Source: a virus. Taken from it: DNA of 64,000 nucleotides. Positions 2,863 through 32,925 of this stretch are shown here, piece after piece. The stretch is from IMG/VR virus record IMGVR_UViG_3300031963_000003, positions 169,564 to 233,563 of that record; one strand, 5' to 3'. The notes under the pieces were generated by a model, which was given only the letters and a program-made list of their open reading frames with translations, searched no databases and was not told the DNA's origin. The translations under genes were made by a program, and so were the position numbers. How positions within the stretch are numbered: position 1 is the first letter of the stretch; each line of letters begins with the position of its first letter.

Positions 2863-4239
2863 ATGAAAATTACAAAAACACTATTATTAATTTTAGGATT
2901 GTTTACAATCGTATACTCATGTTCTGACACGAGTAAAACAATTAAACCACAAGAGTTCCCAACGGACTTAGGTATTTCGGGATTCAATTTTCCTGAAGAC
3001 TCTACGAAAATTTACGGATGGTTAGAGAATCAAGATACAACCAGTATTGTAAATCACGCGTGGGGTATTTGGGCTGGACTTACTCAACCAACAAAACAAA
3101 AATACAATGGTCAAACATTGTTGGTTTTTGAAACTTGGATGGGTGTTCAAGAACTATCTGCAATGTCTGCACAGGGTCAAGTTTCAAGTTCAATGGAAAA
3201 ATCAAACAGAACTGAACTTAACATCCCGAAACAATTTGTACATGGTAAACTTTTCGCGGGACAAAAGATTGACACAAACTTCACTGTGTTGGAAACAGTT
3301 TCTTATGACCCATCTGCGGCACATTTTGCAACATCAAACAAATTATTTAATCAATCGTCATTGAACAAATATTTGGTAAAAGATGGAATTGGTGCGGTAC
3401 CTGAATTTCCTAATACTTCAATCACCACCAAACCAACATATTATGCTGGTGTACCAAGTAAAAACGGTTTGATTAGAGTACCTGTTTGGGTATCACCAAA
3501 TCCGGCCAAAGCGTATAGATATAATGAATGGCAACAATGGGTTTACGCCGATGTTAATAATAAACAGGAACCGAATAAAAAGTTAGTACCTGTAACAACA
3601 TCAAATCCCACAGAGGAACAAATTAAAGATGCGACCTGTAACGTAAATGATTTTATTAATTATAAAATTGATAGAGTAGGTGCGGACTATCTCAATAGTC
3701 ACCAAGACGTTGGAACTACACCAAGTAGACAATTTATCGAAGGTGACTATGTGTTGTTGGTAGCCATGCACGTAACAACAAAAGAATTTAAAAATTGGAC
3801 ATGGCAAACTTATTTTTGGTGCCCTGACCCGTCTAACCCTCCTTCACCAAGTTCTAAATTTGAAGCAGGTCTTAGACCTAAAGAACTTAAAGGCGCCGCT
3901 TCACACTACGCAGTTAGTACAGCATACGCAATGGTTTGGCCGAATCAACCTGTGAGTGGCGGTTCTGACAACAACGCTAGACCGATACTTGCTTTCAATC
4001 CTTATTTAGAGGGTGGATTTGGTCCAAAAGTTTTCAGTTTACAAAACAAATTCAGACCTGATTTTGTGTATGGAATGCAAACAAACTGTATGTCATGTCA
4101 CGCATTGTCGACTATGACGGGTAAGAATGGATACACCACAAATCAATACATTGATATGATGGACACATCGTTATTTAAGAATGATGTTAAATTAGATTTC
4201 ACATGGTCAATTCAAGGTAACTTGAATTCTGATAAGTAA
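2863..4239 (+). CDS. Secreted lipoprotein with one c-type heme motif
   Basis: 458 aa. Residues 1-19 form a signal sequence ending in a lipobox (VYSC, Cys20), so the mature protein should be lipid-anchored on the far side of the inner membrane. A single CXXCH heme-attachment motif (C409-M-S-C-H413) lies near the C-terminus after a long region rich in Trp, Asn and Pro. This fits a cytochrome c-like lipoprotein of the kind found in bacterial genomes, which is unusual cargo for a phage. Heme attachment would need the host's cytochrome c maturation system. No other domain recognised. Confidence 0.75.
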   Translation: MKITKTLLLILGLFTIVYSCSDTSKTIKPQEFPTDLGISGFNFPEDSTKIYGWLENQDTTSIVNHAWGIWAGLTQPTKQKYNGQTLLVFETWMGVQELSAMSAQGQVSSSMEKSNRTELNIPKQFVHGKLFAGQKIDTNFTVLETVSYDPSAAHFATSNKLFNQSSLNKYLVKDGIGAVPEFPNTSITTKPTYYAGVPSKNGLIRVPVWVSPNPAKAYRYNEWQQWVYADVNNKQEPNKKLVPVTTSNPTEEQIKDATCNVNDFINYKIDRVGADYLNSHQDVGTTPSRQFIEGDYVLLVAMHVTTKEFKNWTWQTYFWCPDPSNPPSPSSKFEAGLRPKELKGAASHYAVSTAYAMVWPNQPVSGGSDNNARPILAFNPYLEGGFGPKVFSLQNKFRPDFVYGMQTNCMSCHALSTMTGKNGYTTNQYIDMMDTSLFKNDVKLDFTWSIQGNLNSDK

Positions 4240-32423: not shown

Positions 32424-32455
32424 TTTTGCATATTAAAAAATATACATTATATTTG
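32424..32455 (+). promoter_or_regulatory. Bacteroidota-type promoter
   Basis: TATATTTG at 32448-32455 with TTTTTG upstream at about 32423-32428; precedes a microprotein gene and the structured RNA region. Confidence 0.7.
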
Positions 32456-32469
32456 TATCAAAATTAATT

Positions 32470-32577
32470 ATGACAGTTATTTTAGTATACATAGGATTCT
32501 CTCTTTGGTTTCTCGCTGGTTACAAAGTAGGGGAATATAGAACAAGAAAAGAATATCTAAAGAAACGTTCCGATTAA
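32470..32577 (+). CDS. Small membrane protein
   Basis: 35 aa: one hydrophobic segment (residues 3-20) then a basic tail (YRTRKEYLKKRSD). It starts 14 nt after a good promoter and ends just before the structured RNA, so both may share a transcript. Confidence 0.6.
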   Translation: MTVILVYIGFSLWFLAGYKVGEYRTRKEYLKKRSD

Positions 32578-32582
32578 TCATC

Positions 32583-32784
32583 GGATAGTGTGCCTCACAT
32601 GATGAGAAACGGTGTGATAACCGTAGAGGACTGATAATAAGACAACGTCTTATTCGGACTGACTATCCGCGGGGAATACCAAAAGGGTGATAAAGAACAA
32701 CGTGCCCCTGTAAGTCTATTCCTAACCCGGCAACGGGGACAACCATAACACCTGAAAGTTGGATAAATTAGGGTGTTTTTTTTT
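32583..32784 (+). ncRNA. Putative structured non-coding RNA with intrinsic terminator
   Basis: GC-rich island in AT-rich DNA, with no convincing ORF on the plus strand. Visible helices: P1 GGATAGT (32583-32589) with ACTATCC (32662-32668); inside it CCTC/GAGG (32593-32596, 32626-32629), ACGGT/ACCGT (32609-32613, 32620-32624) and a perfect 8-bp stem (32636-32643, 32647-32654). Then GGAATA/TATTCC (32673-32678, 32717-32722), and a CCCG-GCAA-CGGG hairpin with a GNRA tetraloop (32726-32737). It ends in an ACACC/GGTGT hairpin with nine T. I recognise no known class (not tRNA, tmRNA, RNase P or a consensus hammerhead). Confidence 0.65.
32748..32784 (+). terminator. Intrinsic terminator of the structured RNA
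   Basis: ACACC (32748-32752) pairs with GGTGT (32772-32776), followed by a T run to 32784. The loop is long (19 nt). Confidence 0.75.
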
Positions 32785-32792
32785 GTGATTTT

Positions 32793-32823
32793 TTTGGATT
32801 TCACAAAAAAATTTTTATATTTG
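32793..32823 (+). promoter_or_regulatory. Bacteroidota-type promoter
   Basis: TTTGG at 32793-32797 and TATATTTG at 32816-32823, 18 nt apart, directly after the RNA terminator; starts the next operon. Confidence 0.85.
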
Positions 32824-32838
32824 AAGAAAAATGTGATT

Positions 32839-32925
32839 ATGGAAAGATATCCCTTTTGGTTGAACAACTTGGTGTACTTCTTAGCAGGTATAGGATTTGG
32901 ATTTTTAATCTTTATGTATCTATGA
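32839..32925 (+). CDS. Membrane microprotein
   Basis: 28 aa with one hydrophobic helix (VYFLAGIGFGFLIFMYL). First gene after a strong promoter; its stop overlaps the next ATG (ATGA). Confidence 0.55.
   Translation: MERYPFWLNNLVYFLAGIGFGFLIFMYL

Follow-up and report, generated by a model that had tools for sequence, protein, structure and literature searches.

The usual view of phage tRNA arrays is that they supplement translation, but large structured RNAs such as GOLLD, ROOL and T4 RNAC/RNAD are found in them too. The T4 RNAs are small stable phage RNAs (species 1 and 2), which are expressed and have no known function (PMC9697503, PMC3014915). GOLLD and ROOL are structured RNAs found near phage tRNA islands, also of unknown function (PMC12286853). 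Theta ribozymes, which are HDV-like, are found no more than 1 nt away from the 3' ends of phage tRNAs, and about 90% of their predicted hosts are Bacteroidota (PMC10879173).

We describe here an RNA family that adds to these a compact, covariation-backed RNA, doubly pseudoknotted and clearly bounded, present in many phages. Its small size suits straightforward biochemistry, and makes the role of non-tRNA RNAs in arrays approachable with one short transcript. The starting point was a 64-kb stretch of viral DNA, hereafter the window, corresponding to bases 169,564-233,563 of the 233.6-kb IMG/VR virus record IMGVR_UViG_3300031963_000003. Homologues were collected, 39 non-redundant members of the main group were aligned (alignment A2), and a covariance model of 191 positions was built (R1). 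The family is outside Rfam and appears undescribed, judging from the open-licence papers compared.

In the T4 genome, RNAC and RNAD adjoin tRNA-Arg, RNAD starting ~1 nt after it. The family RNA also sits directly after a tRNA in an array, although the window copy does not. The genomes of T4, Flavobacterium phage immuto and Bacteroides phage DAC22 gave no R1 match, the genome-wide search of T4 returning nothing significant. The full scan had its best hit over RNAD nucleotides 1-24 (7.9 bits, E 0.12), and an unrelated control stretch scored 7.8 bits. Upon local alignment, 2 of 400 shuffles were as good as RNAD and 145 of 400 as good as RNAC, only the AGAAR-hairpin segment being alike: the first 28 nt of RNAD weakly resemble the GAUGAGAA-P3 segment of the family, and RNAD's first bases vary among T4 relatives. 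Because the unrelated control scores almost equally, we take this resemblance only as a lead to a possible homologue.

GOLLD (RF02032), a large structured phage or prophage RNA by tRNA islands, is found near the family RNA in L031, L032 and L118, but it often exceeds 800 nt and is matched at separate places from R1: RF02032 does not match the family RNA, and its hits in these three loci lie elsewhere. RF02032 had no hit in the window's own record, nor in any control genome. ROOL is likewise a pseudoknotted phage RNA near tRNA islands (PMC12286853), but it measures ~660 nt, against ~213 nt for the window RNA, and no Rfam ROOL match was obtained. Finally, the family RNA shares with theta ribozymes a start where phage tRNAs end, but its fold is larger than, and different from, their minimal HDV fold; no HDV-family match was found in Rfam for the window RNA and its homologues, and their first helix is a local hairpin.

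The RNA locus in the window phage

Promoters of the TTTG-N18-21-TANNTTTG type are typical of Bacteroidota. The window contains 30 such sites, versus 3.35 expected, and the nearest GenBank phage relatives of its helicase are from Bacteroides phages (36% identity), so that the host of this phage most likely belongs to the Bacteroidota. No tRNA gene was found in the window with ARAGORN; an array of 22-23 tRNAs is placed at the opposite end of the same record, far from the RNA copy. This array carries, between tRNA-Arg and tRNA-Leu, a freshwater-1 RNA, another small RNA of 62 nt, which has no match to the family RNA. Main features of the locus and of the array are as follows.

32425-32455, + strand: Bacteroidota-type promoter of the micropeptide and RNA unit, TTTG-N19-TANNTTTG (promoter pattern scan)
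32470-32577, + strand: 35-aa micropeptide ORF, MTVILVYIGFSLWFLAGYKVGEYRTRKEYLKKRSD, its final codons overlapping the 5' end of the RNA
32565-32777, + strand: structured RNA, from the family consensus ACG to the final nucleotide of P6 (R1 match, A2 alignment)
32793-32823: second Bacteroidota-type promoter, 3' of the RNA (promoter pattern scan)
L142:1920-1981 (record position C1:1920-1981), minus strand: freshwater-1 RNA (RF02979, 84.7 bits)

The original prediction, made on the window alone, described a GC-rich, multi-helix RNA of unknown class, with a GNRA tetraloop on a CCCG/CGGG stem and a terminator, lying between the micropeptide ORF (32470-32577) and the promoter (32793-32823). All these elements are present at that place, the tetraloop reading GCAA, and the RNA is a real structured one, outside Rfam. 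The proposed extent, 32583-32784, is right at its end and short at its start: conservation begins 18 nt earlier, and with its terminator the RNA covers 32565-32784 of the + strand, of which the consensus part makes ~213 nt. The island has 45% GC and the whole window 34%, which places it at the 99.2nd percentile of stretches of the same length. Its minimum free energy is ordinary (z = -0.93, 41 of 200 shuffles being as good), and structure was therefore judged from relatives, the proof being comparative. ARAGORN and Rfam recognized neither a tRNA fold nor a tmRNA in the window RNA. More generally, the window matched no Rfam 15 family at gathering threshold, and relaxing the threshold gave matches of chance level.

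A neighbouring protein led to near-identical phages, and to L016, where the RNA is found at 73% DNA identity. The 35-aa micropeptide has a 71% identical counterpart in L016, and its homologues are restricted to the window lineage and L016, a distribution by which we rejected it as an obligatory partner of the RNA. In the close relative L015, a partial record, the RNA is absent from an otherwise similar region: promoter, micropeptide gene, RNA and terminator are replaced by a short unrelated stretch. As the whole unit is replaced, it behaves as a removable cassette, and the RNA appears dispensable at least locally, judging from this partial record. The RNA was also looked for in a more distant contig, L017, and not found. 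A second micropeptide ORF (28 aa, MERYPFWLNNLVYFLAGIGFGFLIFMYL, hydrophobic) is located at 32839-32925 of the window, with its own promoter upstream; it is still present in L015, which has no RNA cassette.

Conserved fold and pseudoknots

RNAalifold and the structure named by eye concur, on alignment A2, on hairpins P1, P2, P3, P5 and P6. Coordinates of all elements in the window are given below, together with the alignment evidence.

32569-32585, + strand: P1 hairpin, core 32569-32572 / 32582-32585; 4/4 pairs compensatory
32588-32600, + strand: P2 hairpin, 32588-32591 / 32597-32600; 3/4 pairs compensatory
32593-32629, + strand: PK1, P2 loop CCTC (32593-32596) with GAGG (32626-32629); 4/4 pairs compensatory, 86.5% of cells paired
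32600-32608, + strand: joining strand P2-P3, TGATGAGAA, near-invariant in A2 columns, likewise in groups II and III (alignment A3)
32609-32624, + strand: P3 hairpin, 32609-32613 / 32620-32624; 5/5 pairs compensatory
32636-32654, + strand: P4a hairpin of the variable domain, AATAAGAC/GTCTTATT (folding of single members)
32655-32669, + strand: P4b hairpin, CGGA-CTGACTA-TCCG, whose loop pairs in PK3
32661-32716, + strand: PK3, P4b loop GACT (32661-32664) with AGTC (32713-32716) (per-sequence shuffle test)
32717-32726, + strand: near-invariant TATTCCTAAC, candidate PK2 strand (invariant columns)
32726-32737, + strand: P5 hairpin, CCCG-GCAA-CGGG; 2/3 tested pairs compensatory, 100% of cells paired
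32747-32777, + strand: P6, AACACC/GGTGTT, closing the 3' end; 3/6 pairs compensatory, 99.1% paired
32776-32784, + strand: U-tract after P6, intrinsic terminator (sequence; fold of 32741-32790, -7.8 kcal/mol)

The 39 sequences of A2 covary in these helices, so that the original prediction passes the refuting check set for it, a lack of covariation among homologues: compensatory changes were observed at 21 of the 26 tested pairs, PK1 included. Cells changed on both sides amounted to 156, versus 49.5 expected from shuffles, and 96.4% of the cells were able to pair once PK1 was added. The covariation score was 0.465, and fell to at most 0.081 when partners were slid by 1-3 columns; kinship of the sequences inflates such counts, yet the slid controls show no such effect. 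For one P2 pair (columns 30/39), all four Watson-Crick types occur. The CCTC/GAGG pairing is real, but takes the form of a pseudoknot, PK1, between the P2 loop and the strand that follows P3. It covaries at 4 of 4 positions, reading CCUC/GAGG in the window, UCCA/UGGA in L016 and CUCU/AGAG in L058.

The middle domain is variable, its type differs between members and it aligns poorly. We therefore searched each sequence for pairing between a hairpin loop of this domain and the 4-5 nt preceding UAUUCC. Of the 41 members, 39 allow such a pairing, PK3, whereas 200 shuffles gave 19.7 on average and 28 at most; in a few members, the hairpin chosen by the program differs from the choice by eye. A further candidate, PK2, would join UCC-U-AAC (TCC.AAC) to the nearly invariant GTTGGA at 32758-32763, a pairing that we only infer, because its strands do not vary.

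Several other pairings were rejected. The long stem CGGATAGT (32582-32589)/ACTATCCG, favoured by the energy model in the window, is retained in full by only 2 of 39 homologues; instead of a long closing stem, the family uses the local P1 hairpin and two pseudoknots. Homologues did not support a long-range closing stem GGATAGT/ACTATCC, nor a TAG/CTA pairing that would connect P1 with the 3' half, the G in question being paired inside P2. An HDV-type pairing of the 5' ACGTTC with a downstream GAACGT was seen by eye only, in one type of variable domain.

Distribution and genomic setting of the family

Briefly, a pattern for the 3' part, TTCCTAACCCGN{2,8}GGGGACA, matched unrelated phage contigs in which the RNA lies within tRNA arrays, and two further patterns yielded most of the family. 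The main group comprises more than 80 IMG/VR records (about 84 by count), often fragments, and 54 distinct sequences. Model R1, whose construction from homologues had been proposed as a check of the RNA, covers all complete main-group loci end to end, and L092, L051 and L088, left out of the build, still score 94-140 bits. The window RNA, itself included in the model, is aligned over positions 1-191 (168.7 bits, E 6.7e-45) with P1, P2, PK1, P3, P5 and P6, and so belongs to the family. Most records have a single copy. The 310-kb phage record L081 has two differing copies on the minus strand, at 1502-1677 and 3244-3422, with different variable domains.

Outside this collection, searches were negative. 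No Rfam family appeared among the matches listed for homologous RNAs of the other searched loci (150 of 184 in the last list). Using blastn against 50,697 GenBank phage records, four members gave tRNA or chance fragments or nothing, and group III (see below) gave nothing. No family member was found in the plasmids searched. The pattern scan of 84,980 prokaryote genomes gave ten chance hits, none confirmed by R1 (12.8 bits at most), and R1 found none in 396 genomes of the Pedobacter phylum, under strict filters and with no positive control.

Across these many phages, the usual place of the RNA is between tRNA genes. At least 37 of the 54 distinct members lie directly after a tRNA (33 by a strict T-arm pattern, 4 more by ARAGORN). 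Where ARAGORN detects the tRNAs, there is typically no gap (0 nt) between the tRNA end and the RNA, and the next tRNA, where directly downstream, begins 3-7 nt after P6. Conservation begins within 1-2 nt of the tRNA end, the sequence upstream being otherwise unconserved. In the remaining members a small ORF or a spacer precedes the RNA, and AAAGAA or AAGAT is frequent ahead of ACG: in L056, L061 and L078 the RNA begins 4 nt after a small ORF, and in L101 it has a promoter 17 nt upstream and a tRNA-like sequence within a few bases downstream. Such free-standing copies have a small gene or a promoter upstream and sometimes their own terminator, a U-tract following P6 in the window, L066, L071 and L093. 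The window copy is of this kind, placed after the micropeptide gene, with its own terminator and no tRNA neighbours. No constant class of downstream gene was found in the main group, the RNA being followed by tRNAs or by unrelated sequence.

A pattern for the 5' domain revealed two divergent groups. Group II (10 loci) is mostly found within or adjoining tRNA arrays, and group III in T7-like phages; the L119 copy of the latter follows tRNA-Cys, and the genes 3' of it look like those for an ssDNA-binding protein, a primase-helicase and a DNA polymerase. Both groups retain P1, P2, the PK1 complement, GAUGAGAA and P3 (alignment A3); group II additionally retains UUCUAACCCC...GGGGACAG, and in group III the 3' half differs. 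Model E-values for these groups, 1e-14 to 3e-5, are optimistic because the hits were chosen by a pattern containing the conserved letters, and the retained pairing carries more weight. In L118 (6373-7201, minus strand), a group I and a group II RNA are ~400 nt apart in one array.

Proposed product and competing explanations

Family members are compact (~175-250 nt), doubly pseudoknotted phage RNAs. In our interpretation, which we hold to be probable, they are excised from tRNA or mRNA transcripts, stable and acting in trans. The array transcript would be cut by tRNA processing enzymes, tRNA 3'-end processing generating the 5' end of the RNA and RNase P, acting at the next tRNA, its 3' end. The main argument for a discrete product comes from anatomy: start and end are identical under different modes of production. 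Once excised, the RNA would persist and act during infection, alone or as an RNP. Its companions are phage tRNAs and, in some arrays, also tmRNA and GOLLD: both of these are near the RNA in L032 and share its locus in L118, and GOLLD is near it in L031. From this neighbourhood we propose, with less certainty, that its most likely service would be phage takeover or protection of translation. A small regulatory RNA, as first proposed, is possible. Another of the initial proposals, a packaged RNA, fits poorly with its absence from L015's record and its presence in unlike phage types.

The main mechanistic rival, which we consider unlikely, is that the RNA self-cleaves at its own 5' end. This would account for conservation starting within 1-2 nt of the tRNA end after an otherwise unconserved sequence, the fold is pseudoknotted, and theta ribozymes offer a precedent at phage tRNA 3' ends (PMC10879173). 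However, no Rfam ribozyme matched, P1 is a local hairpin and pairing of the 5' end with downstream sequence is not general. Moreover, cleavage at the predicted site would, in the window and in L016, interrupt the micropeptide ORF upstream of its stop codon, and ~200 nt with a conserved 3' half far exceed the needs of a trimming device. Still less probable is a cis-acting element, either a riboswitch or leader acting on the gene that follows, or a 3' UTR or terminator element of the preceding one. Co-transcription of the window copy with the micropeptide and its ending in a terminator, the start 4 nt after a small ORF in L056, L061 and L078, and the placement of group III, in T7-like phages, ahead of a gene resembling those for ssDNA-binding proteins would all suit it, but neighbour genes vary, micropeptide homologues are confined to the window lineage and L016, and most copies sit amid tRNA genes, where an ORF to be regulated is lacking. 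The riboswitch-like leader remnant initially envisaged is not supported, main-group copies lying between tRNAs or after unrelated small genes, and ending in their own terminator or shortly before a tRNA, with no constant gene downstream.

We give little credit to a decoy or inhibitor countering the attack of host defences on tRNAs or translation, which would be why tRNA arrays carry it: patchiness among close relatives (the RNA was not found in L015's record), accessory-style mobility and tRNA-array linkage speak for it, but neither a defence target nor a known mimicry goes with it. As for a chance GC-rich foldable spacer with no functional RNA, the ordinary folding energy (z -0.93) would agree with it, but the homologues in unlike phages, the 156 compensatory cells and the covarying pseudoknot leave it a negligible probability, and we consider this reading refuted by covariation.

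Compared with the excised trans-acting RNA that we favour, a bolder reading of the 5' domain is rather doubtful. P1-P2-PK1-P3 and GAUGAGAA, joined to three 3' halves in Bacteroidota-type and T7-like phages, might constitute a new catalytic or protein-recruiting module, either a class of self-cleaving ribozymes freeing phage tRNA ends or a translation-targeting RNP common to unlike phages, perhaps distantly related to T4 RNAD.

Other elements were noted around family members. At L032:6388-6792, a phage tmRNA with predicted tag ATSTVAVA shares its region with tRNAs, GOLLD and the RNA. Between tRNA-Asn and tRNA-Met of L030 (11919-12010), a GC-rich stretch of ~90 nt, GTGATAATCACTCCACGC...GATGGCAATGTGGTTATTAAGAGG, has similar sequences in the sister arrays L032, L035, L037 and L038, and is possibly a further array RNA. 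Lastly, a conserved hairpin-like sequence of GAGCCTGTAACAGGGCTC type is found ~10-25 nt upstream of the RNA in the tRNA-free L054, L087, L070 and L099, and L054 and L070 have in common the downstream sequence GCACCATTCTCACGTGG.
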